Of a stretch of DNA of 64,000 bases, positions 7,808-62,138 are shown in pieces; the stretch's first letter is position 1; the number at the start of each line of letters is the position of its first letter. The position numbers and the translations under genes are program-made. The stretch is from assembly GCA_900318345.1 (NCBI GenBank), contig ONKD01000011.1, forward strand, positions 1-64,000, written 5' to 3'. Source of the DNA: an uncultured Prevotellaceae bacterium (GTDB lineage: Bacteria; Bacteroidota; Bacteroidia; Bacteroidales; Muribaculaceae). Below the pieces are notes generated by a model that made no database searches, was not told where the DNA came from, and was given only the letters and a program-made list of their open reading frames with translations.

Positions 7808-7851
7808 CTAGATGATCTAGATGGTCTAGAATAACTGGAATTTCTAGAATT
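7808..7851 (-). repeat. TCTAG nonamer array between hlyD and ABC gene
   Basis: On the minus strand the gap reads AAATTCTAG, AAATTCCAG, TTATTCTAG, ACCATCTAG, ATCATCTAG at an exact 9-bp step. The first unit is the last two codons and the stop codon (AAA TTC TAG) of the upstream hlyD gene. Function is unknown. Confidence 0.8.
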
Positions 7852-8824
7852 TCACTTCACCATACATGCCTATCTTGACAAAGCCATCGTTTTGGATAGC
7901 GATTTTGACGGCATACACCAGGTCGGCCCGCTCGTCATCGGTGAGGATAGTCTTGGGAGTGAACTCCGAGCGGCCCGAAATCCACGCAATGGTGCCGGCA
8001 TACTCTTTTTTCTGTCCGTTGCCATAGTCGGCAAACACCTTACACTGCTGCCCCACCTTGATGCTCTGCAACTGTGCTGACGTGACATAGGCACGGATGA
8101 ACATGTGCTCCACATCGGCCATCTTGAACATCGGTTTGCCGGTGGTCACATACTCGCCCATCTCGACATATTTCTCTAGCACGGTACCCTTGATTGGTGC
8201 CACGATGTCGGCATTGGCGATTTGATCGTCCAGTTGGCGTTGCTGGGCATTGATACCTGCCACCTGGGCGTCGATGCCATCCATCTGGGCACTGATGCCC
8301 TTGCCCTGCTCGGCCAGGGCTGCGTTGTTGCTGCGTATCTGGTCGCGGGTAGCCTCGAGTTGGCGATTGAGCACCTTGATCTGGTTATCGATGTCATCGA
8401 GTTGCTTGCGCGGCACGGCGCCGTCCTTGACGAGTTCGGCAAAGCGCTGGCGCTCACGCTGGGCGTTGGCGATCTGCTGCTGGATGGACGACAGTTGTTT
8501 GTTCAGGTCCAACTGCTGGCTATTAGTAGCCGAGCGGTTAGACGACATCTGGCGCTTGCTGGCGGCTAGCTGGCCGCGCTGGGTCTCGAGTTGCTGCTTT
8601 TTCAACTCCAGCTGATAGGTGTCGATGTGCCCCAACAGGGTTCCTTGCTCGACCGCCAGCCCCTCGGTGACATCAAACGCCTTCAGTTCACCCGTTGCCT
8701 TGGCGCTGACGGTGACCTCGGTTGCCTCAAATGTACCTGTCGCGTCAAACGCCTTTTCCTTCTTGCCGCAAGCGGTCGCCATCAGCACCACGCTTGCCAG
8801 TATCACTATCTTTTTCATCGTCAT
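7844..8824 (-). CDS. HlyD-family periplasmic adaptor lipoprotein of efflux system
   Basis: This 326-residue membrane-fusion protein starts with a lipoprotein signal (ILASVVLMATACGKK, lipidated Cys19). Biotinyl-lipoyl half-motifs flank a long alpha-helical hairpin of Gln-rich coiled coil (about residues 70-200, for example QQQIANAQRERQR). A beta-barrel domain follows, with the typical IVAPIKGTVLEKYVEMGEYV segment. It bridges the inner-membrane ABC transporter and the TolC-like channel encoded 8 bp upstream. It resembles YbhG. Confidence 0.92.
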   Translation of the reverse strand: MTMKKIVILASVVLMATACGKKEKAFDATGTFEATEVTVSAKATGELKAFDVTEGLAVEQGTLLGHIDTYQLELKKQQLETQRGQLAASKRQMSSNRSATNSQQLDLNKQLSSIQQQIANAQRERQRFAELVKDGAVPRKQLDDIDNQIKVLNRQLEATRDQIRSNNAALAEQGKGISAQMDGIDAQVAGINAQQRQLDDQIANADIVAPIKGTVLEKYVEMGEYVTTGKPMFKMADVEHMFIRAYVTSAQLQSIKVGQQCKVFADYGNGQKKEYAGTIAWISGRSEFTPKTILTDDERADLVYAVKIAIQNDGFVKIGMYGEVKF

Positions 8825-8832
8825 GTTGTATT

Positions 8833-10101
8833 TTAATCGTTGGTGGTATATTTCAGGTCATACATCTGCTTGAGCATCTCAATCTCGTGGATGGAGCGCT
8901 GCACGCGAGCCGCGTTCTCGCTGTTGATGTCGCGCAACAGGTCGTTCACGTCGATAATACCGTGCGCCAGCTTGGACTCGGCGGCCTTGCGCACCTGCTC
9001 GCGCAGGGCGATAATCTCCTCATCCTGGGACATGAGGCTGCGGTAACGGCCGATGGCCTCCTGTTGCTGCATCTGTTCCAACCGGTTGTTGAACAGGAAC
9101 ACTTCGCGCTGGTTCTGGGCAGTCTCGCGTTGCAGTTGCAGCTTTGCCTTGTCGTTATGACGGGTGTAGAGCGCGCCGATGTTCCATGTCATGCGCGCGC
9201 CCACCATGCCGTTCCATGACCAGTCGCGCCCCATCATGTCCTTGAACATGTTGTAGCCAGGGTAACCATAGTAGCCCTGGGCAAACACGCCCAATCGGGG
9301 CAGCAATGCAGCGTCAAGGGCTTTCTCCTGAGCATTAGCCAATCGCAGTTGGCTATCGATAAGCTTCAACTCAGGGCGATTGTTGCCCGTGCCGCTCGCC
9401 ACAGCTTGCGGCTTGACCACGCCACTCACTTCCAAACCGCAGAAGGTACCCAGCATCGCCAACAGCACACGCCGTTGTGACTCCAGCGTCGTTCGTTGTT
9501 GGACCACGTTCAGCCGCTCGGCAGTAACGTTGTTGAGGTCACACTGGGCAGCGGTGCCGTGCTTGACCATCGAGGTGAGTTTCTTCTCGCTGGCTGCGAG
9601 TTGCTCCTGCAGGTCAGCGTTGAGGGTGATCTGGTCCTCGAGCAGCAACAGGGCAAAGTACATCTCGTTGACGCGCTGGCGCACGTTGTACAGGCTCACG
9701 TCGAGTTGAGCCTGCTGCACAGCGCCCTGCTCGCGGGCCACACGTTTCTGTGCACCGATCATGCCACCGTCAAATACAGTCTGCTGCACGTCCAGCCCCA
9801 CGCGGTACTGGTCCTTGGCCAGGCCTTTCATGTCCAGCCCCATCTGCCCCATCATGGCCTGCATCTCGTCGGGCCACGACGGCACGGCATTCTGATAAGT
9901 CGCCTGAGCGGTCGCCGACACCTGTGGCAGCCACCCCTTCTGGACATTGGCAACTGTGAGGTCGGTAGTGCGAGCGATGAGGTCATGCTGGGCGATGAGC
10001 GGATAGTTGCGCTCGGCAGCCTGCTGGCACTCTTCCAGGGTCTGTCCGCTAGAGAAAAACGGCAGCAAGGCCAGTGCTATAAACAATAGATTCTTCATCA
10101 T
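8833..10101 (-). CDS. TolC-family outer-membrane channel
   Basis: TolC-type proteins form trimeric outer-membrane ducts. I set the start at 10101 (MMKNLLFIALALLPFFSSGQ), because this gives a clean signal peptide. An in-frame ATG at 10131 would fall inside the probable -7 box (10129-10136). The mature part shows two repeats of long coiled-coil helices with YPLIAQHDL and NRPELKLIDSQL motifs typical of OEP domains. It is the first gene of the efflux operon and faces the AraC regulator across a short divergent region. Confidence 0.9.
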   Translation of the reverse strand: MMKNLLFIALALLPFFSSGQTLEECQQAAERNYPLIAQHDLIARTTDLTVANVQKGWLPQVSATAQATYQNAVPSWPDEMQAMMGQMGLDMKGLAKDQYRVGLDVQQTVFDGGMIGAQKRVAREQGAVQQAQLDVSLYNVRQRVNEMYFALLLLEDQITLNADLQEQLAASEKKLTSMVKHGTAAQCDLNNVTAERLNVVQQRTTLESQRRVLLAMLGTFCGLEVSGVVKPQAVASGTGNNRPELKLIDSQLRLANAQEKALDAALLPRLGVFAQGYYGYPGYNMFKDMMGRDWSWNGMVGARMTWNIGALYTRHNDKAKLQLQRETAQNQREVFLFNNRLEQMQQQEAIGRYRSLMSQDEEIIALREQVRKAAESKLAHGIIDVNDLLRDINSENAARVQRSIHEIEMLKQMYDLKYTTND

Positions 10102-10128
10102 ATCGCAATGCGTTTTTGTTTCACTCTG

Positions 10129-10136
10129 CAAATTTA
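10129..10136 (-). promoter_or_regulatory. Probable -7 box of the tolC-hlyD-ABC operon
   Basis: The minus strand reads TAAATTTG, matching TAnnTTTG, about 28 bp before the chosen tolC start. The -33 element is not obvious, which suits an operon that needs the adjacent AraC-type activator. Confidence 0.5.
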
Positions 10137-10233
10137 CAACGACAATCAGGGTCTGCCTTTATCCATTTTGACGGAAAACCATCCTTTTTGTACAATAATC
10201 ATCAAAAAATGGATACATAAACGCATTTTTCCT

Positions 10234-10241
10234 TATCTTTG
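10234..10241 (+). promoter_or_regulatory. Probable -7 box of the AraC regulator gene
   Basis: TATCTTTG matches the Bacteroidota -7 consensus and lies 25 bp before the regulator start. No good -33 TTG is seen at 19-21 bp. Confidence 0.55.
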
Positions 10242-10266
10242 CATCCAAATTTCATGCAATAGAGAT

Positions 10267-11175
10267 ATGTCAAAGCAAGAACCCAAGCGATTACCCTTGT
10301 CTAGTCTCAAGGAGATGATCGATGCCGATTTCAAGACACAAGGAGTGAGGCCTTACCTCTCTCCAGAGTTCGCCATCGTGTATGGTTCCAACACCTTTCA
10401 AGCGATGCGGAATATATTTGAGATTTCGGTACCCTATCGCGTCGATGACTTCCGTTTCATCGCCTTTCATAAAGGTGACGTTGACATCACTGCCAACCTC
10501 TTGAAGTTTCACGTCACCGATAACACTGTGGGATTTATGGGCAATGGCGGCATCATACAGATGGACAGGATCTCATCAGATGTATCGATGTCAGGCATCG
10601 TGGTCAAGGAAGATTTCCTGCGACGTGCCATGGGTGGCAGGTTGCCCGCGACGTTTAACGGCAGGGTTCACAATTTCTATCTTCAGGTGACAGCCCAGGA
10701 ATGTGACATAGTGGTTCGCATGATTCTCACATTGCGCCTTCTGGTCGAGGATCCTCATTACAGTCGCGAAGCCTCGGCATCGCTCATTGCGGCAATAGTC
10801 AACTACATCGCTGGCCTGTATGAACGCTATGGCGCCGATGTGCCGGCCACCCGATCACGCCAGCAGGACGTGTTCAACCGATTTATCGCTCTGGTCAATG
10901 AGCAGTGTTTTCACCACCACACGTTGGAATACTACGCCGACAAGTTGTGCATTACCCAGCGTTACCTGGGCACCCTCGTCAAGCAGGCCAGTGGCACGAC
11001 CGCCAAGGAGTGGATTGACCGGGCGCTCATCAACGAGGCAAAGGTAGCCTTAAGGCACAGCGACATCACCGTCGCACAACTTGCCGACAGTCTGAGTTTT
11101 CCCAATCCAGCCTTTTTTTCAAAATTTTTCAAGCGCATGACTGGCATGACGCCATCCCAGTACAAGCACCAATAA
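10267..11175 (+). CDS. AraC-family transcriptional regulator
   Basis: This 302-residue regulator ends in an AraC-type double helix-turn-helix (about residues 205-302: LEYYADKLCITQRYLGTLVKQ... and SLSFPNPAFFSKFFKRMTGMTPSQYK). The N-terminal 180 residues form the effector-binding part. An upstream in-frame ATG at 10108 would add 53 residues across the promoter region, so I chose MSKQEPKRL. The gene is divergent from tolC, which makes control of the efflux operon its most likely role. Confidence 0.9.
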   Translation: MSKQEPKRLPLSSLKEMIDADFKTQGVRPYLSPEFAIVYGSNTFQAMRNIFEISVPYRVDDFRFIAFHKGDVDITANLLKFHVTDNTVGFMGNGGIIQMDRISSDVSMSGIVVKEDFLRRAMGGRLPATFNGRVHNFYLQVTAQECDIVVRMILTLRLLVEDPHYSREASASLIAAIVNYIAGLYERYGADVPATRSRQQDVFNRFIALVNEQCFHHHTLEYYADKLCITQRYLGTLVKQASGTTAKEWIDRALINEAKVALRHSDITVAQLADSLSFPNPAFFSKFFKRMTGMTPSQYKHQ

Positions 11176-11202
11176 GGATTCTGTTCTTGCTATGCCCCGG
11201 TA

Positions 11203-12468: not shown

Positions 12469-12479
12469 TGATTATTAGT

Positions 12480-12511
12480 TTTTTAGTCACTAGTCGCTAG
12501 TCACTAGTCTT
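12480..12511 (-). repeat. GACTAGN heptamer array before waaA
   Basis: The minus strand reads GACTAGT, GACTAGC, GACTAGT, GACTAAA at an exact 7-bp step. The first GACTAG contains the last codon (GAC) and stop (TAG) of the upstream gene at 12504. This is the cleanest example of an array seeded at a stop codon. Confidence 0.85.
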
Positions 12512-13553
12512 TGATCATTATTTTTTTTGATGAGCCCGCAATGTAGAAACGGCAACTAATCTGTTGCCAGAAACCTGTGGTCTTATCGGTGGCATGTAAC
12601 GCCAGAGAGCCCGTCAGGTCCACATAGTCATTGCTCACTACATGAAATATCAGGTCGGTGCGGCTGTAGGTTTTACTGTGATAATAGGGGTCACCCAAGT
12701 TCAGCAGACTGCCTAGTGAAGGATACAACGGCATGATGTCCTTGCCCAGATAGCACGTCTCGTCAAGCTGCAGCCATCGCCAGCGGGCAGTGACAGTAGC
12801 GACAAATCCGGCAGGTCGGTGCCAGCGTTCCTCCCCACGGTCGCGCTCCATGGCGATGATGGCTCCTGCAGCCAGCCGCAAGGAGTCAAGCATGGTGCGA
12901 TGTGAGAAGTCTAGTGCTGCCATGGGGTTGATCGCAAGGTCATCATTCACATGCTGGTCGCCGGGATTGAGGCGCGATTTGGCCAGATGGCTGTACTGCA
13001 CATGACCGCCCAGGCTCAACGGCCCGGCGATGCGCCAGTCGGTGTTAAGCATGACAGCAAAGGCCTCACGCTGATGGTCGGTCTGGAGTTGCCTCCAGTC
13101 CACGGCCAGTTCGGTATAGCCAGCGGGCTTGGCCAGTTGCACCAGCACGCCGTGCAGGTTGGGTTGGCAATAGTCCAGGGAGTCGCTCCACAAGTAGCGT
13201 GGCATGCGCTTAACCATGAGTGAACGCGGTACAAGACCTGTTGCCACATGCCACCCGTCAGTTCGGTTGTACTGGTAATAGAGCGTGGGCAGCACCTTAT
13301 AACCATGCAGGTTGTCGGTCATGGGCTGGTACCATGCGACGCCACCCTTGAGCACATGCTCCCCATCGCCCATCGACAAGCCCACCTCGGGGGCTAGGCG
13401 CGTGAACATGAAGGTCTGGTCGGGCGTATAGCCGTCACCACCCTCACGGTTATTGAGCAACACGTTGGCATCGACACTCCACACCACTTCCTGGGCTGTG
13501 AGTGTCGATACCGTAAGAATCAAGGTCGATATGGCAATGAGCCAATTACGCAT
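12504..13553 (-). CDS. Probable outer-membrane beta-barrel protein, unknown function
   Basis: The family was not recognised. The chosen start [21 protein letters not shown] gives a good signal peptide and overlaps the gltX stop by 8 bp; an ATG at 13586 would add 11 residues with no signal character. The mature 330 residues show alternating hydrophobic and aromatic strands (for example [19 protein letters not shown]) and end in a Phe-rich last strand (QQISCRFYI), then a short Lys-rich tail. This suggests an outer-membrane barrel. It is flanked by gltX and waaA. The stop codon is the first unit of the downstream heptamer array. Confidence 0.7.
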
Positions 13554-19036: not shown

Positions 19037-20381
19037 TCACTTCTTGTCGGGATTAGGCAACTTGAAGATGCGGTTCCAGCGGATGCCGCCATCAAAGAGC
19101 TTGTGGTCCTTGTTGAAGGAGATGAGGATGATCGACGGGGTGCCCACGATGTGACATCTTGAAGGTATAGCTCGTCGCAGGCTTGCCGTTGATGTAAATC
19201 TGGTTACCCTTGACTTCCAGGTTATTGCCCTCATAATTCTTGATGCAGCGCTCATACAGCGGCAGGTTCTCCACTGTCAGGTCCACCTTGGCGCCCTTCT
19301 TGGGAATCCAGATGGGGCCGTAGTTGGCGTGAGTCCAACCATAGTCGGTACCCACGGGGTAAGTAATGAGGGTTTCGCCTGGATCGGGCTGGATGCGTTG
19401 TACGTTCTGCACCCAGGGCTTGGCCTCGATCGTTTTTTTCATTTCAGCGGTAAGCGGCAGCACATATTCCGAAGTACTGATGTATCCTCGGGCCTGATCC
19501 TCATTGCTGATACTCAGTTCCTCGAAAAAGTCGTTGCTAAAAGGAGTGCCATCAGACTGCACGTAGTAGCAGTACTGCACATTCTTGGGTTGAGGCACAG
19601 CCTTGCCGTTGACATAGACAATGCCGTCCTTAATCTGGAGCGTCTCACCTGGCAATCCCAGGCAACGCTTCACGTAGTTATCACGGCGGTCAACTGGGCG
19701 ATAGATAATCTCGCCAAACTTATCCTTGTTGTTTCGCACCACCTCGCGACCATACATGGCACACTGGGTATAATAGTCAGGGTTAGTGCTGGCGAGTGCT
19801 ACGGTGTCGCCGGCAGGGAAGTTAAACACCACGATATCCATGCGCTCCACGTTGCGCAGACCTTTCAAGCGGTGGTAATCCAGCTGCGGGTGCTCAATAT
19901 AGGACTTGCAGTTCAGGATGGGCAGCATGTTCTGCGCCAGCGGGAAGTGCAACGGTGTCTGCGGCACGCGGGGGCCATAGGTCACCTTGTTGACCCACAG
20001 GAAATCACCGGTCAACAGCGATTTCTCGAGCGAGGACGAGGGAATCTGGTAATTCTGTCCCACGAACAGGAACAGGAAGTAAACCAGCACCAGGGCATAC
20101 ACGATGGCGTCAATCCAGCTCATGAGGGTGCGCAATGGACCGGGCTTCCAACCTTTCCATGCGCCCCAGGGGATAAACTGCGTCAGGTAGATATCGGCCA
20201 GCAATAACAAGCCCAGCAGCAACAATGGATTGCCCATCCACAGCGTCCACAGCACGTAGATGAGTGCCACGATGCCAAAGCGCCACCAGCGCGTTTTTTT
20301 CACACGTCCCAAGCGCTCCTTGAGTGACCCGGTCTGACGTACATACTCGTCTTCTTTCTTTTTCTCGATATCGTTTGCCAT
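19037..20381 (-). pseudogene. lepB: Signal peptidase I paralogue, frameshifted at box E
   Basis: This gene closely resembles the downstream copy. It keeps box B (IPSSSLEKSLLTGDF) and box D (VKRCLGLPGE). It reads further than the sister copy, through YINGKPATSYTFKM. It then jumps directly into the codons for HIVGTPSII, but in the wrong frame, and stops at 19092 after SHRGHPVDHPH. The correct-frame end (IRWNRIFKLPNPDKK) is still present down to 19037. About 25 residues including box E (GDNR...DSR) are missing. The start is set at MANDIEKKK (20381), matching the sister gene. It may be a true frameshift or a shared assembly error with copy 1. Confidence 0.75.
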
Positions 20382-24542: not shown

Positions 24543-24548
24543 TAAGAT

Positions 24549-24648
24549 TTTTGTCCAAATCTATAGTTTTCACCGCACTTTTGGACAAAATTCAATCGAT
24601 TTTCGTCCAAATCTATAGTTTTCAACCCACTTTTGGACAAAATTCATT
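24549..24648 (+). repeat. Tandem operator-like repeats upstream of the ATPase gene
   Basis: Two copies of a roughly 46-bp sequence start 52 bp apart. Each runs from GTCCAAATCTATAGTTTTCA to CACTTTTGGACAAAATTCA. Each unit also has inverted arms, TTTGTCCAAA and TTTGGACAAA. The second copy ends at the -33 element of the promoter at 24647, which is a position suited to binding of a regulator. Confidence 0.8.
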
Positions 24649-24677
24649 GTTCATCTCAAAAAATCATACTACCTTTG
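24647..24677 (+). promoter_or_regulatory. Promoter of the AAA ATPase gene
   Basis: TTG (24647-24649), 20 bp, TACCTTTG (24670-24677): a full Bacteroidota consensus, 26 bp before the start codon and directly next to the tandem repeats. Confidence 0.8.
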
Positions 24678-32181: not shown

Positions 32182-32220
32182 GGCTCACTGCACTCGCAGT
32201 CTAGAGTAAAGAGTTTAGAG

Positions 32221-32256
32221 GCATCCGCGTCCTTTTGCAGGGCGCGGATGCTTTCT
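32221..32256 (+). terminator. Intrinsic terminator after the gene at 31654
   Basis: GCATCCGCG (32221-32229) pairs with CGCGGATGC (32243-32251), followed by TTTCT. It is preceded by a weak heptamer run (GTCTAGA, GTAAAGA, GTTTAGA). Confidence 0.8.
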
Positions 32257-34542: not shown

Positions 34543-35057
34543 TGAAAAGGCTCATCATCATATTGGCTCTTGCAATTGCGGCCACCGCTTGGCAGGCATG
34601 TATTCCACATTACACGCTTAATGGCGCGTCTATCGACTACAACGTCTATAAGACGATCTCCTTTGGCGAGTTCCCCATTCGTGCGGCGCTGGTCTATCCA
34701 CCGTTGCAGTCGATGTTTGAGAACCGCATGACCGACATGATCGCCCAGCAGACCCGCTTGAGCGTCATCGACAGCAACAACGCCGACCTGCGCATGGAGG
34801 GCGAGATTACTAACTACCAGTTGTCGCCGCAGGCAGTGGGAGAAGATGCCTACGCGAGCCAAACGCGACTCACCATCACGGTCAAGGTCAAGTACATCAA
34901 CAACAAGAACCAGAATCTCTCCAAGGACTTGTCCTTCAGCGCCTACAGGGACTTCTCGAGCAGCGAGCTGCTGGTCGACGTGCAAGACGAGCTGTGTAAC
35001 CAAATCTGCAAGGACCTGGCCGACCTGATATTCAACGCCACCCTGGGCGATTGGTGA
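34542..35057 (+). CDS. lptE: LptE-family LPS-assembly lipoprotein
   Basis: LptE plugs the LptD barrel that inserts lipopolysaccharide into the outer membrane. This 171-residue protein starts with GTG, which shares a base with the upstream stop. Its lipoprotein signal ends at Cys20 (IAATAWQACIPHYTL). The Bacteroidota LptE pattern follows: SIDYNVYKTISFGEFPIRAALVYPPLQ, QQTRLSVIDSNNADLRMEGEI, and LTITVKVKYINNK. It is translationally coupled to the sigma-54 activator. Confidence 0.88.
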   Translation: MKRLIIILALAIAATAWQACIPHYTLNGASIDYNVYKTISFGEFPIRAALVYPPLQSMFENRMTDMIAQQTRLSVIDSNNADLRMEGEITNYQLSPQAVGEDAYASQTRLTITVKVKYINNKNQNLSKDLSFSAYRDFSSSELLVDVQDELCNQICKDLADLIFNATLGDW

Positions 35058-35099
35058 TTTTTAGGTTTTAGGTATGAGGTGTTAGATGTTAGGCTATAA
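35058..35099 (+). repeat. GTTTTAG heptamer array after lptE
   Basis: GTTTTAG, GTATGAG, GTGTTAG, ATGTTAG, GCTATAAG follow at 7-bp steps, starting within 5 bp of the lptE stop. A GACTA array continues directly downstream. Confidence 0.7.
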
Positions 35100-35103
35100 G
35101 TAT

Positions 35104-35130
35104 TGACTAAAGACTAGAGACTAGCAACTG
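35104..35130 (+). repeat. GACTAGN heptamer array before the gene at 35136
   Basis: GACTAAA, GACTAGA, GACTAGC, AACTGAA at an exact 7-bp step, ending about 5 bp before the ATG. It is fused to the GTTTTAG array, so two repeat families share one 78-bp gap. Confidence 0.8.
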
Positions 35131-37411: not shown

Positions 37412-39559
37412 ATGAGAAAAGAAAGGATTTTACTCATGAGCAGTGCATTAATCGCAGCGTCGGCTGTGACGACGCAGGCTCGCATCAACTACCCTGACAC
37501 GCGCCGCGTGGACACGGTGGACACTTATTTCGGCACCCAGGTGCCTGACCCGTATCGCTGGCTCGAGGACGACAACAGTCCCGAAACCGAAGCCTGGGTT
37601 GCAGCCCAGAACAAGGTTACCCAGAACTACCTGTCAAAGATCTCCTTCCGCAAGGATGTAAAGAAGCGCATCACCGAACTCGCCAACTACGAGAAGATGG
37701 GCGCTCCCTTCAAGGTGAAGGACAAATTCTACTTCTTCAAGAACAATGGTCTGCAGAACCAGAGCGTTCTCTACGAGTATGACAAGAACGGCAAACACAA
37801 GATGGTGCTCGACCCCAACACGCTGAGCGAGGACGGCACCGTGGCCCTGCAGCAGCTCGACTTCTCCAATGACGGCCGCTATCTGGCCTATGTGATCACC
37901 CGCAGCGGCAGTGACTGGAATGAAATCTTCGTTAAGGACCTCAAGGAGGACCGTGTGCTTGATGACCACATCGTCTGGGCCAAGTTCACCGATGCCCAGT
38001 GGCTGGGAGACGGCTTCTTCTACAGCGGTTATGACGCCCCCGAGGATGCCAAGTCGTCCAAGAACGAGTTCCAGAAAGTGTATTACCACAAGTTGGGTAC
38101 CCCCCAGAGCCAGGACTACATCGAGTATCAGGACAAGAGCGAACCGCTGCACTTCCACCAGGTGAGCGTCAGCGAGGATGAGCGCTATGTCATCCTGTGG
38201 AAGAGCGATGCCGAGGGCAACGACATCTATGTCAAGGACCTGAAGGACCGCAATCCCCACTACGTGCAGCTCATCGGCGGCATGAAGTATGAGCGCGGTA
38301 TCATCGGCATCGACAACGGCAAGATTTATGTGATGACCAACGAGAATGCCCCCAAGGGCAAGATCATCACCTACGATGCTGAGACTTTGTCTCCCGCCAG
38401 TTGCGCTGAGTTCATTCCCGAGCAGGAATCGGTACTCACCGGTGCTGTGATGGCCGACCACAAGTTCATCCTCACCTACGACAAGGATGCTTCGAGCCAC
38501 CCCTACCTGTATGACCAGCAGGGCAAGCTCATCCGCGAGATTCAGTTGCCCACCTACGGTTCTGTTGGCTTCTCCTGTAAGAAGACCGCTAAGGAGGTCT
38601 TCTACAGCTTTGCCAGCTACACCTTCCCCGGTGCCATCTACAAGTATGACCTGGAGACGGGCAAGAGCGAATTGTTCTTCCAACCCAAGGTCAACCTCAA
38701 GAGCGAGGACTATGTGACCGAGCAGGTCTTCTTCAACAGCAAGGACGGCGCCCGCATCCCCATGTTCTTGGTTTACAAAAAGGGTCTGAAGCGTGACGGC
38801 CAGCGTCCCACCTTCCTCTACGGTTACGGTGGCTTCAACGTGAGCCTCAACCCCGCCTTTACTTACACCCGCACCCTGTTTGCCATGCTGGACTGCGGCG
38901 GCATCTGCGCCTATGTCAACCTGCGTGGCGGTGGCGAGTATGGCGAGGAATGGCATCAGGCCGGCACCAAGATGAACAAGCAGAACGTGTTTGACGACTT
39001 TATCGCCGCTGCTGAGTGGCTCATCGACAACAAGTACACCAACCCCAAGAAGCTGGCCTGCAACGGTGCCAGCAACGGCGGTCTGCTCGTGGGTGCTGTT
39101 GTCAATCAGCGTCCTGACCTGTTTGCTGCTGCAGTGCCTCAGGTGGGTGTGATGGACATGTTGCGCTATCACGAGTTCACCATCGGCTGGAACTGGGCCC
39201 CCGACTATGGCCGCAGTGATGACAGCCCCGAGATGTTCAACTACCTGCGTGGCTACTCGCCCTTGCACAACATCAAGAACGATGGCACGCACTATCCCGC
39301 CATCATGGTGACCACCGGCGACCACGATGACCGTGTCGTACCTGCCCACAGCTTCAAGTATGCCGCTGAGTTGCAGCACTGTAACACCGGCGACCAACCC
39401 AAGCTCATCCGCATCGACAGCAAGGCTGGCCACGGCCACAGCAAGCCCATCAGCAAGATCATCGACGAGTACACCGACATCCAGGCCTTCATCATGGTAA
39501 CACTCATCCCAACAGCATCAAGGAGGCGGGTCACCAGACACGTCTCCTTGGTTTTTTAA
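37412..39559 (+). CDS. Prolyl oligopeptidase (S9A) with altered C-terminus
   Basis: This 715-residue secreted serine peptidase cleaves short peptides after proline. A signal peptide is present (LLMSSALIAASAVTTQA). A seven-bladed propeller (about 70-420) precedes the hydrolase domain. The triad is visible: Ser554 in GASNGGLL, Asp639/640 in GDHDDRVVP, and His674 in KAGHGHSKP. The last 20 residues (VTLIPTASRRRVTRHVSLVF) are unlike the family and overlap a terminator. Removing one G at 39496-39497 would create ATG TAA directly after IQAFIM, the normal family end. Confidence 0.93.
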   Translation: MRKERILLMSSALIAASAVTTQARINYPDTRRVDTVDTYFGTQVPDPYRWLEDDNSPETEAWVAAQNKVTQNYLSKISFRKDVKKRITELANYEKMGAPFKVKDKFYFFKNNGLQNQSVLYEYDKNGKHKMVLDPNTLSEDGTVALQQLDFSNDGRYLAYVITRSGSDWNEIFVKDLKEDRVLDDHIVWAKFTDAQWLGDGFFYSGYDAPEDAKSSKNEFQKVYYHKLGTPQSQDYIEYQDKSEPLHFHQVSVSEDERYVILWKSDAEGNDIYVKDLKDRNPHYVQLIGGMKYERGIIGIDNGKIYVMTNENAPKGKIITYDAETLSPASCAEFIPEQESVLTGAVMADHKFILTYDKDASSHPYLYDQQGKLIREIQLPTYGSVGFSCKKTAKEVFYSFASYTFPGAIYKYDLETGKSELFFQPKVNLKSEDYVTEQVFFNSKDGARIPMFLVYKKGLKRDGQRPTFLYGYGGFNVSLNPAFTYTRTLFAMLDCGGICAYVNLRGGGEYGEEWHQAGTKMNKQNVFDDFIAAAEWLIDNKYTNPKKLACNGASNGGLLVGAVVNQRPDLFAAAVPQVGVMDMLRYHEFTIGWNWAPDYGRSDDSPEMFNYLRGYSPLHNIKNDGTHYPAIMVTTGDHDDRVVPAHSFKYAAELQHCNTGDQPKLIRIDSKAGHGHSKPISKIIDEYTDIQAFIMVTLIPTASRRRVTRHVSLVF
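39519..39557 (+). terminator. Intrinsic terminator at the end of the prolyl oligopeptidase gene
   Basis: CAAGGAGGCG (39519-39528) pairs with CGTCTCCTTG (39541-39550) over 10 bp with one wobble, followed by six T. It overlaps the last codons of the ORF, suggesting that the true stop is upstream. Confidence 0.85.
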
Positions 39560-39563
39560 TGCC

Positions 39564-39608
39564 CCTAAAGGCCTTAAAGTCCTTAATGGCCCTATAGGCC
39601 TTAAAAAA
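39564..39608 (+). repeat. CCTAAAGGC nonamer array before the UvrA-like gene
   Basis: Five units at an exact 9-bp step: CCTAAAGGC, CTTAAAGTC, CTTAATGGC, CCTATAGGC, CTTAAAAAA. The array ends 6 bp before the -7 box. A related array lies before lolD at 53575. Confidence 0.8.
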
Positions 39609-46420: not shown

Positions 46421-46521
46421 ACAACATTTTTTCAAATATATTGCAGCATGGACCACTTTTTACAACAACAATTGACTATTTTATTGATTGTGTTACCGAT
46501 ATGTAAAATTTAACACACCTA

Positions 46522-46555
46522 TTGGTCAGCGATTAGAAAAAAAACTCTACCTTTG
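46522..46555 (+). promoter_or_regulatory. Promoter of the large dockerin protein gene
   Basis: TTG (46522-46524) and TACCTTTG (46548-46555) with a 23-bp spacer, slightly long. The start codon is 55 bp downstream. Confidence 0.6.
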
Positions 46556-46610
46556 CACAATTAAAGGGATGCGACCATAACTTTATTAACCATTTAATAA
46601 ATTCATTGCA

Positions 46611-50916: not shown

Positions 50917-50919
50917 ATT

Positions 50920-50976
50920 ATCAGTTAACAGTTTGTCAGTTAACAGTTAATAGTTGATAGTGAACAGTTAATAGAT
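50920..50976 (-). repeat. CTGTTAA heptamer array before the flippase gene
   Basis: On the minus strand units such as CTATTAA, CTGTTCA, CTATCAA, CTATTAA, CTGTTAA and CTGTTAA follow at mostly 7-bp steps up to a few bases before the start codon. Confidence 0.8.
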
Positions 50977-50998
50977 AATCGTTGGGAGTGAGAATGCC

Positions 50999-51033
50999 AA
51001 CTGTAAACTATTCACTGTAAACTATTCACTAAA
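50999..51033 (-). repeat. TGAATAG/TTTACAG heptamer array seeded at the ruvB stop
   Basis: The minus strand reads TTTTTAG, TGAATAG, TTTACAG, TGAATAG, TTTACAG at an exact 7-bp step. The first unit holds the last codon and TAG stop of ruvB. Confidence 0.8.
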
Positions 51034-52048
51034 AAATTGATCCCACCTCACCGGGATGCTCTCGCTTCAAGTGGTTATAGGCAAGCATGGTTGCCTCGCG
51101 GCCGCGCGGGGTGCGGTTGATGAAGCCCTCCTTGATGAGGTAAGGCTCATACACCTCCTCGATGGTGCCAGCGTCCTCGTTCATCGCCGTGGCGATGGTG
51201 TTCAAGCCCACAGGACCGCCATTGAACTTGTCAATGATAGTCAGCAATATCTTGTTGTCGATTTCGTCGAGACCATACTTGTCGATGTTCAGCGCCTCGA
51301 GGGCATAGCGGGCGATCTCGAGGTCGATGCGTCCGTTGCCCTTGACCTGGGCAAAGTCGCGCACTCGCCTCAAGAGCGAGTTGGCGATACGGGGCGTGCC
51401 ACGGCTGCGCAGGGCGATTTCCACAGCGGCCTTGTCGTCGATGGGCACCGACAGCAGGCGCGCCGAGCGATGGATGATGCCTTGCAACACCTTGTGGTCA
51501 TAGTACTCCAGGTGGCAGTTGATGCCGAAACGGGCTCGCAGCGGCGAGGTGAGCAGGCCACTGCGCGTGGTAGCACCGATGAGGGTAAACGGGGCAAGGG
51601 TCAGCTGCACCGATCGTGCTCCCGGCCCCTTATCAATCATGATATCGATGCGATAGTCCTCCATCGCGCTGTAGAGGTATTCCTCGACGATGGGGCTCAG
51701 GCGATGAATCTCGTCGATGAAGAGCACATCGTTCTCGTCGAGCGACGTCAGCAGGCCCGCCAGGTCGCCAGGCTTGTCGAGCACGGGACCCGAGGTAACC
51801 TTGAAACCCACGCCCAACTCATTGGCGATGATGTTGCTCAATGTAGTCTTTCCCAGACCCGGAGGCCCATGAAACAGCACATGGTCCAGCGACTCGCCGC
51901 GCAGCTTAGCAGCGGCGACAAACACGCGCAGGTTCTCGATGATCTTGTCCTGACCCGCGAAATCCTCAAAGCGCACGGGACGTAATGCCCGCTCAAAGTC
52001 CTGGTCGGTCTTCAACGACTCTCTCCTGATATCAAATTCCTCGTCCAT
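51029..52048 (-). CDS. ruvB: Holliday junction branch-migration helicase RuvB
   Basis: RuvB is the hexameric AAA+ motor that drives branch migration with RuvA. The protein of about 339 residues has Walker [10 protein letters not shown], Walker B LFIDEIHR, sensor [18 protein letters not shown] and the winged-helix C-terminus with [15 protein letters not shown] chose [10 protein letters not shown] (52048); the upstream ATG at 52057 lies inside a TAATTTTG -7 box (52055-52062), so the mRNA may be leaderless. No ruvA is adjacent. Confidence 0.96.
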
Positions 52049-53533: not shown

Positions 53534-53574
53534 TCATGTTAGCCACGATTTTTCCACAGCGATCACTTATAGGG

Positions 53575-53612
53575 CCTATAAGACTTATAAGACCTATAGG
53601 TCCTATAGGACC
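53575..53612 (+). repeat. CCTATAGGN nonamer array between metK and lolD
   Basis: CCTATAAGA, CTTATAAGA, CCTATAGGT, CCTATAGGA at an exact 9-bp step. It ends about 30 bp before the -33 of the lolD promoter and is related to the array at 39564. Confidence 0.8.
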
Positions 53613-55026: not shown

Positions 55027-55061
55027 TCATTTTTAAACATTTATCATAATAAGAAATAATT

Positions 55062-55385: not shown

Positions 55386-55429
55386 TTCTCGATTAGGGAT
55401 TAGAGGATTTTCACCCACTGACATCAGAG

Positions 55430-56905
55430 ATGGAACATCCACTACTTATCTATAACACACTGACCAGGCGCAAGGAGCACTTCGTGCCCCTGAACGAGCC
55501 GATGGTGGGCATGTATGTGTGTGGTCCCACGGTCTATGGCGATCCGCATCTGGGACACACCAGGCCTGCCATCACGTTTGACGTGCTGTTCCGTTACCTG
55601 CAGCAACTGGGCTACAAGGTGCGCTACGTGCGCAACATCACCGATGTGGGGCATCTGGAGCACGATGCCGACGAGGGCGAGGACAAAATCGCCAAGAAGG
55701 CCCGCCTCGAGCAGCTCGAACCCATGGAAGTGGCTCAGTACTACACTAACCGCTACCATGCCGCGATGCAGCAACTCAACGTGTTGCCCCCGAGCATCGA
55801 GCCACATGCCACGGGCCACATCATCGAGCAGGAGGAACTGGTGAAACAAATCATGGCTAACGGCTACGCCTATGAGAGCAACGGCAGCGTGTACTTTGAC
55901 ATCGAGGCCTACAACCGAGACCACCGCTACGGTGTCCTCTCGGGACGTAACCTCGATGACATCCTCAACGCCAGCCGCGAGCTCGATGGCGTGGGCGAGA
56001 AGCACAACCAAGCCGACTTTGCCTTGTGGAAGAAGGCTCAGCCCGAGCACATCATGCGCTGGCCCTCGCCCTGGAGCGACGGATTCCCCGGGTGGCACTG
56101 CGAGTGCACCGCCATGGGACGCAAGTACCTGGGCAAGCACTTTGACATCCACGGCGGCGGGATGGACCTCGTGTTCCCGCACCACGAGTGCGAGATTGCC
56201 CAGGCTGTGGCCAGCCAGGGCGACGAGATGGTGCACTACTGGATGCATAACAACATGATCACCATCAATGGGCAGAAGATGGGCAAATCGCTGGGTAACT
56301 TCATCACCCTGGAACAATTCTTCACGGGTGACCACCCCGCATTGACCCAAGCCTACTCGCCCATGACGATCCGCTTCTTCATCCTGCAAGCCCACTATCG
56401 TGGAACGGTCGACTTCAGCAACGAGGCCCTTCAAGCGGCCGAAAAAGCTGTTGAGCGCATGCTTGACGGTTGGCACCGCCTGAACAACCTCACTGCCGCT
56501 GACCAATCCTCAGTGACGCCGGAGAACTACCGTCAGCGCTGCGCCGACGCGATGAACGACGACCTGAACACACCCATGGTTATCGCAACCCTGTTTGACG
56601 CCTGCAAGGTCATCAATCAGGTCAACGACGGCCATGCCACGCTCACCCAGGCCGACATCGACGAGCTCAAGAGCATCTTCCAGACCTATCTGTTTGACGT
56701 GCTGGGCATACGCGATGATGCCGCCGGTGGTGAGAGCGTCAACCTCGACCCCTATCGCCATGCCGTTGACCTGTTGCTGGAGATGCGCCGCACTGCCAAG
56801 GCCAACAAGGACTGGGCGACCAGCGACCTGATTCGCGACAAGCTCAGCGAGTTTGGCTTTGAGGTGAAGGACACCAAGGACGGCTTTGAGTGGAAAGTGA
56901 AATAA
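55430..56905 (+). CDS. cysS: Cysteinyl-tRNA synthetase
   Basis: CysS charges tRNA-Cys. The 491-residue class I enzyme has [16 protein letters not shown] (HIGH-type motif), the zinc ligands in WHCECTAMG and PHHECEIAQ, and KMGKSLGN (KMSKS-type). Length and motif order are normal. The gap to the next gene contains paired heptamer arrays that form an inverted repeat. Confidence 0.97.
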
Positions 56906-56914
56906 ACCAGTAAT

Positions 56915-56978
56915 CAGTTGACAGTTAATAGTGAACAGTTGTTCGCATTTAACTGTCAACTGTTAATTATCAACTATT
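56915..56978 (+). repeat. Inverted pair of CTGTTAA heptamer arrays
   Basis: CAGTTGACAGTTAA (56915-56928) and TTAACTGTCAACTG (56949-56962) are perfect 14-bp inverted arms. Each arm is part of a heptamer run (CTGTTCA, CTATTAA, CTGTCAA and the reverse), so the array can fold into a long hairpin between cysS and the glycosyltransferase. Confidence 0.8.
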
Positions 56979-56988
56979 ATCTAGAAAA

Positions 56989-58192: not shown

Positions 58193-58238
58193 AACACAAA
58201 AAAAGTAAGACAGGGTGGGAATCCTGTCTTATTTTATT
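58193..58238. terminator. Bidirectional terminator
   Basis: TAAGACAGG (58206-58214) and CCTGTCTTA (58223-58231) pair perfectly; A-rich on the left and T-rich on the right. It mainly serves the gene ending at 58245. Confidence 0.85.
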
Positions 58239-58244
58239 ATGCAT

Positions 58245-59735
58245 TTAATCCTTAGGGCTACTCGTCTGGTTCAGCAGCTGGTCAATGAGCATAGTCACGT
58301 CCTGAATGCCAATCACGCCATCACCATCCACATCATTAGCATATCGATAGGATCTGGCGCTTCCCAGCAGCACATCGATCAAGTCAGCGATATCTGACAC
58401 ATTCACAGCGCCATCAATATTAATGTCTCCAATGGGATTCATTGCATCGATTTGTCTGTTCAGCCAACGGTAACGTGATTTATACCAGATAATGCGGTCT
58501 TGAACATGCTCCTCCAAATCAGTTGGCGTGTAGCCACTAACCAGTCCATCGAGTACAAGGCTAGCATTCAGTGCACGCCCTTCACTGGATGAATTGAATG
58601 AATTTAAAAACTGACTGATGGTCGAAAAAAAAGTCTTATTCATTTTCCTCCACAAGCCGACATACTCATCAACAAATGTGCGGTTCTCATTATCAAACAA
58701 CGACTGAAAATGTTTAATGTGGCTCCTGGACCATGAAAACGAAGTGTGTTCTGCCATATCGAAGTCCCACAACAAGGGCATCTGGATTTTAGATGTGCCG
58801 GTACTGTCATATTTGCAATAATACCTATTGGCACCGCCAGAGTCTTGAGTTCCCTCGATATCGTGGCCCAAACACCATGCGGCAAACGTGACAACATCAA
58901 TTTTGTCGGTATAGTTGGGACCATTGAGGCTATTCTCATAATCAGTCACAACCGTCTGCATGTACTGCAACTGCTCGGGGAGAATTTCATCGCTCTCGGG
59001 ATACTTGAAAGTAAAATTATAGGAAGGTGCTGTGAGTGAATTCACATACACATCCTCGTTCCACCAATAGGGGTCACACTCAAAGATGTAGCCCGAGTTC
59101 TTATCCACATTGATACGGCAGTCGGGATTGCGCTTGACCGACTCACAAAGCATGTACAGTCCCTTGTAATTGCCATTTAAAACCACACTCACAAAATGAA
59201 ATTTAGGAGTCCAAGGAAGATCCAACAAGGCATTCACCTTGAAGCCAACCAAGGTGAGGAGGTAATCATACTTGAGCAGCAACCAGTCCTTGTCCTTATA
59301 GGTTGCTTCATCGCCACGGAAAAGCAGATCCTGCTTTTTTTGCAACTTGATTTTATAAGGCTTCTTGGTACCATAAGCACTCGTGTTGCCACGAATCTTG
59401 ATGGTCATGCCGCTAACGTCTTTCTCATAATCGCCACTATCATACAGCACGCTATCGATCTCACCAATATGCTGATAGATAATCATCCGGCCAGGAACTT
59501 TAGTGACGTTGGTGATGGACTTGCCCATGCATCCAGCAGGGGCAGACACATAATCACAGGTGGGTTCCTCGCTATCGACCGTTTGGATATACAGGACTGG
59601 TAGTCCCTTGGAAATGATGTCGCTTAATACCATCATCGAGTCACCCACAGCAACCACCGATGACGTATCGGCCTTGGCTACAAGGGAACTGAGCGCTATA
59701 CAGATTGTTACACATATAAAAGCATACTTTTTCAT
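58245..59735 (-). CDS. CotH-kinase family secreted protein with dockerin-like repeats (second copy)
   Basis: This 496-residue protein parallels the CotH-like protein at 44641. A signal peptide (FICVTICIALSSLVAKA) precedes the CotH-like domain (about 65-430), with IKIRGNTSAYGTKKPYKIKLQKK, KDKDWLLLKYD, NGNYKGLYMLCESVKR and LLWDFDMAEHT. Dockerin-like repeats end it (about 437-490, GDINIDGAVNVSDIADLIDVLL and NDVDGDGVIGIQDVTMLIDQLL). The first motif set is more canonical (RGNTS) than in the other copy. Confidence 0.86.
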   Translation of the reverse strand: MKKYAFICVTICIALSSLVAKADTSSVVAVGDSMMVLSDIISKGLPVLYIQTVDSEEPTCDYVSAPAGCMGKSITNVTKVPGRMIIYQHIGEIDSVLYDSGDYEKDVSGMTIKIRGNTSAYGTKKPYKIKLQKKQDLLFRGDEATYKDKDWLLLKYDYLLTLVGFKVNALLDLPWTPKFHFVSVVLNGNYKGLYMLCESVKRNPDCRINVDKNSGYIFECDPYWWNEDVYVNSLTAPSYNFTFKYPESDEILPEQLQYMQTVVTDYENSLNGPNYTDKIDVVTFAAWCLGHDIEGTQDSGGANRYYCKYDSTGTSKIQMPLLWDFDMAEHTSFSWSRSHIKHFQSLFDNENRTFVDEYVGLWRKMNKTFFSTISQFLNSFNSSSEGRALNASLVLDGLVSGYTPTDLEEHVQDRIIWYKSRYRWLNRQIDAMNPIGDINIDGAVNVSDIADLIDVLLGSARSYRYANDVDGDGVIGIQDVTMLIDQLLNQTSSPKD

Positions 59736-59818
59736 CCGGATAATACTATTAATATGTTTTGGTTATGATGTTGTTGCTAATGCCTGAAGGGTTAGCGCTT
59801 GAGGCCGTCGTACTTTCT

Positions 59819-59842
59819 GAATAAACCGCCAACGGTTTATTC
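59819..59842. terminator. Hairpin at the end of the acyltransferase gene
   Basis: GAATAAACCG and CGGTTTATTC are perfect 10-bp arms around CCAA. The hairpin includes the stop codon of the gene at 59837. No strong T-tract follows on the minus strand. Confidence 0.6.
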
Positions 59843-60814
59843 CACCCCGCGCATCTTTTTGATCATAAGGATGAGATTATCCTTGATGAAATAGTACAGC
59901 AGGGCGACCATGATAGTTAAAATAATAATCAAGAATGGTCTAATCCATGCCTCCAATAATCCTGGCGTTGGCCTAAGTGCATCATAGGCGTGAATGACTA
60001 TGGGATGCATGATATAGACCATAAAAGAATACTTGAAGCCTAGAGGGCACAAGATATTTTTCTTAATATTTGACCGAGCGGCAATATAATATAGCGCTGG
60101 ACTTAACAGCAATGTTCCCACATGCCATAGCAGATTGTTGGCAAAAAAGGATACCGAGATAATCACGGCTCCAACCAGCCCAATTAACAGCGCGTTCAAC
60201 CTGCTCATCGGGTTTTCTTCTCTCTCAAGGTACAACCTGATGTAGCCACCTATGGCAAAGAATGGTATACCTCTAATCCACACGTTGTTGATAGGCACAT
60301 AAAAATGAAATACCGATGATGCAATAACAATCAAGAAACTTAACGCCGTGAGAAAGTAGGACAGTTTGATGAGTGCTTCTCTTTTTAACAATAGCCTGAA
60401 CAGGTAGCAGTATAGCATCGTGAACAAGAACCACACAACGCCGCTAACGTAGGTTTCATTCAAGAAAAAGAAAAACAGCATGTGCCGCACAGTGAAGATC
60501 TTTTCCTGGAAAAAGGCGCAGAAAAGCGAGAAGTCACAATCGTTTTGTATGTAGATCCTCACTAAGTTAATCGTGTATGCAAACAATAAATATCGGCACA
60601 TCTTCATGATCGATTTCTTAGTCTTGGACGGTTTGGTATGGACCGCAAAGTAGCCTGCCGTAATAAAGAAAATCGGGGATGCAAAGTGAGAGAGCAATGC
60701 TACATATTGACCAAATACGCCAGGGAAATAGGCATGGTTCAAAACCACAAACCACGCTGTAACTGCCTTTAGCGCATCAATGGTGTAATTCCTTTTTTTA
60801 GCAACAGGATTCAT
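59837..60814 (-). CDS. Acyltransferase family 3 membrane protein
   Basis: This 325-residue protein has about ten membrane helices and fits the acyltransferase 3 family (OatA/WecH/OafA type), which O-acetylates sugars. The N-terminal IDALKAVTAWFVVLNHAYFPG holds the conserved active-site His. The FMVYIMHPIVIH motif near the C-terminus is typical. The substrate is a surface sugar of unknown kind. It lies downstream of sufS by 53 bp in the same direction, but the functions look unrelated. Confidence 0.88.
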   Translation of the reverse strand: MNPVAKKRNYTIDALKAVTAWFVVLNHAYFPGVFGQYVALLSHFASPIFFITAGYFAVHTKPSKTKKSIMKMCRYLLFAYTINLVRIYIQNDCDFSLFCAFFQEKIFTVRHMLFFFFLNETYVSGVVWFLFTMLYCYLFRLLLKREALIKLSYFLTALSFLIVIASSVFHFYVPINNVWIRGIPFFAIGGYIRLYLEREENPMSRLNALLIGLVGAVIISVSFFANNLLWHVGTLLLSPALYYIAARSNIKKNILCPLGFKYSFMVYIMHPIVIHAYDALRPTPGLLEAWIRPFLIIILTIMVALLYYFIKDNLILMIKKMRGVE

Positions 60815-60867
60815 CCTTTATAATTTCTTAGAATCATTATTTACACAACATTTGGGGGCATAAATTG

Positions 60868-62079
60868 CTAGCGGAGCATTTGGGCAACACGCCGGGTGGC
60901 GGCGACAAAGGCGGCAACCTCCTCGAGGGTATTATACACCGCGAACGATGCCCTGACCATTCCCTGGACACCATAGTGAGCCATCAGCGGTTGAGCGCAG
61001 TGATGACCAGTGCGCACTGCTACACCCAACTTGTCGAGCAGCAAGCCCATGTCATAGCTGCTGATGTCGCCCACGAGGAAGGACACCACGCCACTCTTGC
61101 CAGGGGCGGTACCAAACAAGCGGATATCCTCGATGCTACTCAAACCCTCAATAGCGGCCTGCAACAACTCGTGCTCATGGGCAGCAATGTTGTCGATGCC
61201 CAACTGCTGGATATAGTCAATGGCTGCGCCAAATGCTGCGATATCCACAAAGTCGGGAGTGCCAGCCTCAAACTTGAAAGGCAATTCGGCGAATGTAGTG
61301 TGATCAAACGACACTTGTCCAATCATCTCTCCACCACCCTGATAAGGCGGCATCTTATCCAGCCAGTAGCGTTTGCCATAGAGGATACCCACTCCAGCGG
61401 GGCCATACATCTTGTGGCTGGAGAAGGCATAGAAGTCACAGTCCAAGTCCTTCACGTCAACTGCTACATGGGGGGCCGCTTGGGCTCCGTCGATGAGCAC
61501 GGGCACACCGTGGCTATGGGCGATGGCAATCATCTCCTTGACGGGATTGACCGTGCCCAGCACGTTAGACACATGGGCTAGCGCGACAAAGCGAGTGTTA
61601 TCGGTAAACAAATCCTCAAATGCCTGCATATCCACCTGGCCGCTATCGTCGATAGGCACCACGCGCAGGGTGACCCGCTTGCGTTGCCCGATAAGTTGCC
61701 AGGGGACAATGTTGCTGTGATGCTCCATCACCGTAACGATGATTTCGTCACTATTCTCGAGCATCTGGCCAAAGGACGATGCCACCAGGTTGATGCCCTC
61801 GGTCGTGCCACGGGTAAAAATCACCTCCTCGATGCTGTCAGCATTGATAAAAGCACGCACTTTCTCGCGAGTGAGCTCAACCAGGTCGGTCGCCTCTTGT
61901 GAGAGCGTGTGCACGCCGCGATGCACATTGGCCTTATAGTGATAGTACATCTGGTCAATGGCCTCGACGACGGGTCGCGGCGTTTGGGACGTTGCGGCAT
62001 TGTCGAGATAGATGAGAGGGCGTCCCTCAATCTGGCGTTGAAGGATGGGATAATCCTCGCGTATCTTGTTAATGTCCAT
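60868..62079 (-). CDS. sufS: Cysteine desulfurase SufS
   Basis: SufS is a PLP enzyme that takes sulfur from cysteine for Fe-S cluster assembly. I start at MDINKIREDYPILQ (62079, 403 residues), since the GACTA-type sequence GTGACTGCGACTAAT sits just upstream; a start at 62097 would add six residues. The PLP lysine is in SSHKMYGPAG (Lys223) and the catalytic cysteine in RTGHHCAQP (Cys361). It is the last gene of the sufCDS run. Confidence 0.95.
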   Translation of the reverse strand: MDINKIREDYPILQRQIEGRPLIYLDNAATSQTPRPVVEAIDQMYYHYKANVHRGVHTLSQEATDLVELTREKVRAFINADSIEEVIFTRGTTEGINLVASSFGQMLENSDEIIVTVMEHHSNIVPWQLIGQRKRVTLRVVPIDDSGQVDMQAFEDLFTDNTRFVALAHVSNVLGTVNPVKEMIAIAHSHGVPVLIDGAQAAPHVAVDVKDLDCDFYAFSSHKMYGPAGVGILYGKRYWLDKMPPYQGGGEMIGQVSFDHTTFAELPFKFEAGTPDFVDIAAFGAAIDYIQQLGIDNIAAHEHELLQAAIEGLSSIEDIRLFGTAPGKSGVVSFLVGDISSYDMGLLLDKLGVAVRTGHHCAQPLMAHYGVQGMVRASFAVYNTLEEVAAFVAATRRVAQMLR

Positions 62080-62084
62080 TTTAT

Positions 62085-62138
62085 TAGTCGCAGTCACTTG
62101 TGGGTAGGTTTCTAGTGTACCTATAACATCTAGGAGAT
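62085..62138 (-). repeat. TAG-ending nonamer array between sufD and sufS
   Basis: The minus strand reads ATCTCCTAG, ATGTTATAG, GTACACTAG at a 9-bp step, the first unit being the last codons and stop of sufD. A short GACTGC, GACTAAT pair follows, directly before the sufS start. Confidence 0.7.

Follow-up and report, generated by a model that had tools for sequence, protein, structure and literature searches.

Genome-specific heptamer and nonamer arrays at gene ends of an uncultured Bacteroidales bacterium and their turnover between sister species

The short tandemly repeated repetitive sequences of cyanobacteria are degenerate intergenic heptamers. Direct repeats of a single heptamer, TAACTGA, have been described between genes of Beggiatoaceae, Cyanobacteria, and five Bacteroidetes (MacGregor 2015, PMC4679880); in the portions of that paper drawn on here, they lie mostly directly upstream of start codons, 13 sets extend over the preceding gene's stop codon, and some of the gaps concerned are shorter in relatives and lack obvious repeats there. 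Because TAACTGA repeats contain stops in all three frames, overlap with the stop codon is, in MacGregor's argument, necessary. The same portions note other heptamers in Bacteroidetes gaps, describe intergenic heptamer arrays as sporadic, and summarize the long simple sequence repeats (LSSR) of Mrazek et al. (2007), with units of 5–11 nucleotides (nt), heptamers commonest and polymerase slippage proposed as their origin. Among the matches listed from an open-licence library, none described arrays of several words in Bacteroidales. Here, such arrays are examined in a 64,000-nt stretch (the window) from an uncultured Prevotellaceae bacterium (assembly GCA_900318345.1, contig ONKD01000011.1; Muribaculaceae in GTDB), where a first-pass annotation had proposed that arrays following hlyD, a gene labeled OMP, ruvB, and sufD each grew by copying the end of the adjacent gene.

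Arrays of 7-nt units, less often of 8- or 9-nt units, drawing on few words, occupy codirectional gaps of the window's own genome, of sister genomes, and of other Bacteroidales. Where gaps were compared between sister species, the words had turned over. The own genome is a 3.17 Mb assembly (3,174,479 bases in 82 contigs), of which 838,100 bases were sampled nonrandomly, each contig having matched the ruvB array. The RuvB protein of the window is 96–98% identical to that of five assemblies assigned to Muribaculaceae, Prevotellaceae, or Bacteroidales; buffalo omasum and roe-deer abomasum are the sources of two of these. Sister data come from no more than 11 genomes, represented by 12 stretches, and the relatives include metagenome-type assemblies; genes were called with our own dicodon model rather than standard annotation. 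One sister record is present twice (L050 overlaps G018:C13) in the all-gene-end lag test, the gap-position profile, the folds, the array-restricted match, and the counts of periods, of gap density (divergent and convergent gaps), and of all-frame stops; the duplicate was omitted from word sharing and the profile of coding sequence (CDS) positions, and two counts redone without it changed little.

Codirectional gaps of 20–300 nt were surveyed (271 own, 184 from sisters, and 394 from 75 other Bacteroidales loci), with arrays defined as periodic self-match, imperfect units being allowed, and counted at a score of at least 11. Self-match at lag 7 exceeded that of dinucleotide shuffles with z values of 14.0 (own), 14.2 (sisters), and 10.3 (other Bacteroidales). 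Observed and shuffled counts of period-7 arrays were 25 versus 0.5 in the own genome, 30 versus 0.3 in sisters (still 30 without the duplicate), and 32 versus 1.2 elsewhere. The next commonest period, 14 aside, was 9 in own and sister gaps (5 versus 0.4 and 11 versus 0.5) and 8 followed by 9 in the others (14 versus 1.2 and 10 versus 1.3). Units vary in most arrays listed, a near-perfect exception being TGATTAG on contig C49. Arrays extend to either end of a gap: across 31 own array gaps, lag-7 self-match was 0.59 right after stops and 0.41–0.45 in the final 14 nt before starts. Convergent gaps carried ten 7-mer arrays in the own genome (0.0 shuffled) and none in sisters; in divergent gaps, 7-mers numbered 6 versus 0.3 expected (own) and 0 versus 0.4 (sisters), and 9-mers 5 versus 0.2 and 7 versus 0.0. 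A pattern of four ACTARNN units matched 46 of 295 genomes of the order, with words varying by genome among the matches listed. The reversed pattern used as control also matched a number of genomes (e.g., G100 and G263); since this control itself has period 7, the scan reports period-7 arrays more than the ACTARNN word.

The repeat words are genome-wide dialects. Sharing of 7-mers was 0.114 between arrays in different gaps of the same genome and 0.060 between different gaps of different genomes, with 0/500 label permutations reaching the within-genome value; it was 0.187 between orthologous gaps, 0.043 for shuffled arrays, and 0.003 for gene ends (last 14 nt, lengths not matched). The first-pass annotation had stated that the sequence differs from site to site, which holds insofar as several words exist, but the words recur at many sites. 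Its central proposal, that each array was copied from its own gene end, is not supported as a general rule, given the occurrence of the same word after unrelated ends and of unrelated arrays, or none, after conserved ends, as well as arrays in divergent gaps and little or no coupling of 9-mers to the gene end.

One word after many ends is exemplified by the dockerin-type domains abundant in the own genome, for which one 64-residue query (Pfam Dockerin_1, 9.8e-12, at the end of a CotH-kinase protein) gave 158 matches (e.g., L354–L383). Among 58 such ends, taken from the sampled stretches and the first 30 loci of that search, nine directly precede TTAAYAG-type arrays; their tails, written here and below up to the stop codon, are ND, GE, SE, GN (twice), GS (three times), and QW, and all three stops are used. 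The converse is seen after ruvB, whose protein end is SIF in 10/10 genomes with differing array words: TTAAYAG words in the window, G019, and L052, AGTTNTC words in L049 and L051, two different 9-mers in L050 and L053, and others in G007, G021, and G024. The last ruvB codons of L053 are those of the window apart from the stop, yet its array is different. Upstream of the gap designated 31/32, FEWKVK is encoded by the final six codons in 7/7 genomes and the gene end is AAAGTRAAATAA in 6/7, while the gap measures at most 4 nt in four genomes and 61–83 nt, with an array, in three; the arrays are of two unrelated kinds, one in the window and G007 and a 9-mer in G009. The TCTAGANNN 9-mer array of hlyD is found in the orthologous gap of 4/12 genomes, the own included, after gene ends TTCTAG, TTTTAA, TTCTAA, and TTTTAG; the protein ends in G[EKD]VK[FL] in 12/12 genomes and in GEVKF in two array-less ones. 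Seeding at every site was rejected as a general rule on the ruvB, gap 31/32, hlyD, dockerin, and divergent-gap data.

The letters that the first-pass annotation gave for its four gaps were confirmed. When the last 10 nt of each CDS and the gap were tested together at periods 5–14 against 2000 dinucleotide shuffles, arrays were supported in three of them, with 0/2000 shuffles scoring as high at hlyD (period 9, score 19), OMP (period 7, score 15), and ruvB (period 7, score 21), but not in the sufD gap, whose best score of 4 was equalled by 1873/2000 shuffles. The claimed match between gene end and next unit stood out at hlyD (lag 9, 8/9; shuffled-gap p=0.0008; reached among 471 gene ends by hlyD alone) and OMP (lag 7, 6/7; p=0.0026; equalled by 8/471), was marginal at sufD (lag 9, 6/9; p=0.011; 12/471), and was chance-like at ruvB (lag 7, 4/7; p=0.148; 67/471).

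The hlyD array (7808..7853, minus strand) consists of five NNNNTCTAG units and takes in the final 10 nt of the CDS; the hlyD-type gene (7844..8818, minus strand; Pfam HlyD_3, 3e-16) terminates in AAATTCTAG, encoding KF, a tail kept in array-less relatives. The OMP gene end (12504..13553, minus strand) is overlapped by 3.7 units of NGACTAR (12484..12509, minus strand; detected by TRF and the shuffle test); the OMP label is that of the first-pass annotation, Pfam gave no hit for the protein at E 0.001, and its tail IMIKD was found in the own genome and not in the 14 other genomes listed. After ruvB (51029..52048, minus strand; Pfam RuvB), a first arm of TGAATAG TTTACAG in two copies (51000..51030, minus strand; TRF, 100% matches) is followed by an inverted second arm (CTATTAACTG...; 50918..50979, minus strand), which runs to the next start codon and partly pairs with the first in the predicted fold (dG -25.0). 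The gap between sufD (SufD by Pfam) and sufS (62080..62129, minus strand) shows no significant periodicity in the shuffle test, and several sisters carry 7- or 9-mer arrays there. In the corresponding gap of L139, as well as at G024 69790-69868, another palindrome, GAGACGCAAAATTTTGCGTCTC, occupies the place where other genomes have arrays.

The genome-wide comparison suggested by the first-pass annotation gave a small excess in the 471 own gene ends relative to permuted ends at lag 7 (0.307 versus 0.292, z 2.5), lag 9 (z 2.5), and lag 14 (z 2.6); in sisters, lag 7 was raised (z 3.0) with control lag 11 higher (z 3.8), and lag 9 showed no excess (z -0.2). Restriction to 7-mer arrays detected from the gap alone and starting within 6 nt of the stop gave a match of 0.489 versus 0.357 permuted in the own genome (n=19, 0/2000), and 0.434 versus 0.268 with the stop codon excluded (p=0.0015); the sister values were 0.408 versus 0.344 (n=14, p=0.086; p=0.29 without the stop codon). 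For 9-mer arrays near the stop, the match was at the permuted level in every set (p at least 0.27). In 44 own and sister 7-mer arrays that start no more than 6 nt past the stop, at tandem and convergent ends, the repeat matches the last seven CDS bases in register: positions -7 to -1 were raised (0.415 versus 0.264 and 0.583 versus 0.445, 0/1000 draws of comparison gene ends from the whole sample), and positions -21 to -8 were at background. Across nine gene families (7–25 orthologue rows each, 149 in total), the first unit at lag 7 fits its own gene end better than the ends of its orthologues (0.383 versus 0.321, 0/2000; array-bearing rows 0.564 versus 0.460, p=0.001), compared with p=0.11 over all rows and p=0.049 over nine array-bearing rows at lag 9. 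Gene-end coupling, limited to one unit, is thus real for 7-mers, for which the match is commoner than chance as the first-pass annotation had expected, and is absent or marginal for 9-mers. The letter match by itself cannot give the direction of copying.

Stop codons and last codons also differ at array boundaries. TAG is the stop beside 13/34 7-mer arrays versus 66/502 other ends (p=0.0004; 66/497 without the duplicate) and in 4/9 dockerin ends with an array versus 1/49 without (p=0.0014). With arrays detected from the gap alone, the last codon is AGT in 7/30 own ends having a 7-mer array within 6 nt versus 2/441 other own ends (p=7e-8). Further genes are referred to as RfbD, MscS, DAHP synthase, FolD, dockerin, and an MFS permease ("FucP", which we take to be a fucose permease). 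For RfbD, the own genome encodes the tail LLTVNS, G009 has LKTDN, and a 65%-identical relative has FIVNSL (heptamers in the latter two were read by eye). The own tail lies within a scored array that reaches 23 nt into the CDS, and the Pfam domain extends to residue 292 of 297; because the RfbD arrays are largely inside the CDS, the gap-only scan counts none. FucP ends in KTVNP in the own genome and in six other tails across six relatives. FolD ends in EYFS (AGTTAA TAGTTAATAG) or EYFSE (AGTGAATAG TGAATAG); a first unit AGTTAAT gives EYFS and AGTGAAT gives EYFSE, the second unit agreeing each time.

On balance, fast-turnover, stop-rich, genome-specific arrays that overlap gene ends probably account for these data better than seeding does. 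Such arrays would grow and homogenize through replication slippage and be tolerated in gaps, and their words would spread or converge inside a genome. An array meeting an open reading frame would intrude only as far as the array's first in-frame stop, so that this stop would become the gene's stop and the first unit its terminal codons. This would give rise to the gene-end match, to the TAG and AGT excesses, and, in a few genes, to tails encoded by the array, and the gene end would be the place where the array halts rather than the origin of its sequence. Least certain is whether an array is more easily established where a gene end happens to resemble the local dialect. A bolder version, which we consider unlikely, makes stop codons capture points for array growth in this genus: a dialect-like gene end would nucleate an array that homogenizes across the stop and rewrites tail and stop, such that a change of dialect would drive concerted change of C termini genome-wide.

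Three other explanations are less probable than arrays halting at gene ends. Seeded growth, in which slippage copies the last 7 or 9 CDS nt and later rounds of slippage lengthen the array in the direction away from the gene, is unlikely, even though the in-register match of one unit and the tracking of own gene ends at lag 7 in the nine families are as it predicts, and GAGTTAG arrays accompany GAGTTAG ends of SufD (G007, G009, and G017) and of C46:5. It is countered by words that recur behind many gene ends, by single gene ends that are followed by differing words, by divergent gaps that hold arrays, by the barely coupled 9-mers, and by the words unrelated to the gene end already seen at ruvB and gap 31/32. 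Chance similarity in AT-rich gaps is a highly improbable explanation of the gene-end match. The ruvB match (p=0.15), the aperiodic sufD gap, the small genome-wide excess, and the equally high control lag in sisters are compatible with it; for 7-mers, it is contradicted by the array-restricted, CDS-position, and within-family tests.

A functional 3'-end cassette, in which a stop-rich array and a terminator-like hairpin are selected to halt ribosomes in every frame before transcription ends, with gene ends, arrays, and hairpins co-evolving, is likewise rather improbable. Stops in all three frames do exceed shuffles in 7-mer arrays (25/36 own, 14.3 shuffled; 29/39 sisters, 12.2 shuffled), but they are as frequent on the antisense strand (30/36 and 29/39), and arrays of period 9, a multiple of 3, are frequent yet seldom stop all frames (2/16 own, 0/13 sisters). 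Selection for period 7 as a means of stopping all frames was rejected, periods 9, and 8 elsewhere, being too common. Arrays are enriched beside some dispersed hairpin cores (GGCATCCGC and GCTCGC). Set beside dispersed mobile repeats (REP/MITE), for which recurrence at unrelated sites around a hairpin core would be expected, the GGCATCCGC motif has 21 intergenic own sites in 838 kb, one of them in the window (32220..32251, plus strand, after a short TTTAGAG-like arm); an GGCATCCGC...GCGGATGC hairpin is closed in several places, with differing array words beside the same core. A 7-mer array lies in the 45 nt before the core at 8/21 sites versus 74/4000 random intergenic positions, and the arrays lie 5' of the hairpin, with 20 TTAG versus 3 CTAA in the 45-nt flanks, as the cassette would have it. 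At a second motif, GCWCGCAGW/GCTCGCTG, 7/8 sites are followed by an array. Predicted folds, likewise in its favor, are stronger in 7-mer array gaps than in array-less gaps (mean z -1.78 versus -0.75 own, -2.35 versus -1.56 sisters). Against the cassette, arrays are absent from some sister gaps and present in some divergent gaps. An RNA hairpin as the unifying feature was rejected, z below -2 being reached in about one-third of 18 own 7-mer array gaps and about one-fifth of 131 array-less gaps; because strong folds occur in some gaps only, the hairpin is retained as a side feature. In own codirectional gaps, TTAG lies on the stop-codon side and CTAA on the start-codon side (47/22 in the first third, 22/49 in the last third, p=2e-5); in sisters the counts are 16/16 and 19/47 (p=0.046).

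Several observations weigh against arrays halting at gene ends. Coupling confined to one unit of the CDS (-7 to -1) is exactly what seeding predicts, and free overwriting would extend further in about two-thirds of cases unless selection removes it. The TAG and AGT excesses fit either direction, including gene ends predisposed to seed. The SufD end KKS with GAGTTAG arrays is in line with seeding, as is the MscS end HVNS, kept in a sister where no array is visible. Conservation of the last five residues was not lower in array-bearing genes (0.775, n=8) than in others (0.706, n=280; p=0.76) in a list for which arrays were detected on CDS and gap jointly and which is therefore selected for match. 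Array takeover did not show itself generally in poorer conservation of tails, so it is claimed for the named genes only. The frequency of period 9, and of 8 elsewhere, does not favor selection for all-frame stops. A common mutational bias could yield shared words without spread. Among the hairpin data, several of the 21 GGCATCCGC sites lie in paralogous dockerin ends, and both motifs were chosen after being seen beside arrays.

The window holds further arrays. A 7-mer array with TTAGGNN words followed by ACTAGNG words (35046..35129, plus strand) scores 25; a pair of 7-mer arrays (56905..56983, plus strand) folds as a hairpin, the gap being 4 nt or absent in four sisters; a 9-mer array of CCTTAAAGN lies at 39557..39603 (plus strand); and another 9-mer array (53568..53612, no strand assigned) occupies a divergent gap, where there is no gene end. 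Elsewhere in the own genome, 9-mer arrays of AGACAAGAA and its reverse complement (C49 41849-41888 and 42327-42372) are inverted around one short called gene. A 52-bp direct repeat is present about twice at 24546-24661 of the window, within a gap. In G007, G009, G021, and G024, a related motif around AGGCG..AGTAATC..ACT recurs between array arms in nonorthologous gaps of the suf operon and nearby. At G024 46497-46598 and G021 19408-19501, a hairpin directly after the stop shows paired changes (TTCCAATG/CATTGGA versus TTCTAATG/CATTAGA), suggesting that a structured 3' end is conserved.

In this clade, one array can be seen replaced by another of different words in the same gap of a sister species, and arrays coincide with altered stop codons and, in a few genes, altered protein tails. 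Such gaps preserve, as a natural record, the origin and spread of short repeats and the way in which these fix the ends of reading frames, and they carry a warning that C-terminal differences among orthologues can be repeat-made. On the best reading, these arrays are related in kind to the intergenic heptamer repeats already known. The cyanobacterial short tandemly repeated repetitive sequences are also degenerate heptamers, in a different phylum and likened here by description only. With LSSR, as far as they are described in PMC4679880, an intergenic heptamer excess is shared (here z 14.0 at lag 7 in the own genome); LSSR are defined as series longer than expected, whereas the present arrays consist of imperfect units found by periodic self-match. 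Adjacent TAACTGA copies were not found in the four gaps of the first-pass annotation, the ruvB arms consisting of TGAATAG/TTTACAG and CTGTTAA-type words. As portrayed in the parts of MacGregor's paper used here, the TAACTGA repeats have in common with these arrays 7-nt intergenic direct repeats, three-frame stops, and overlap of the upstream stop codon, but they are one near-invariant word, in contrast to the several imperfect, genome-specific words, the 9-mers, the turnover between sisters, the tails encoded by different words, and the hairpin cores beside some arrays described here.

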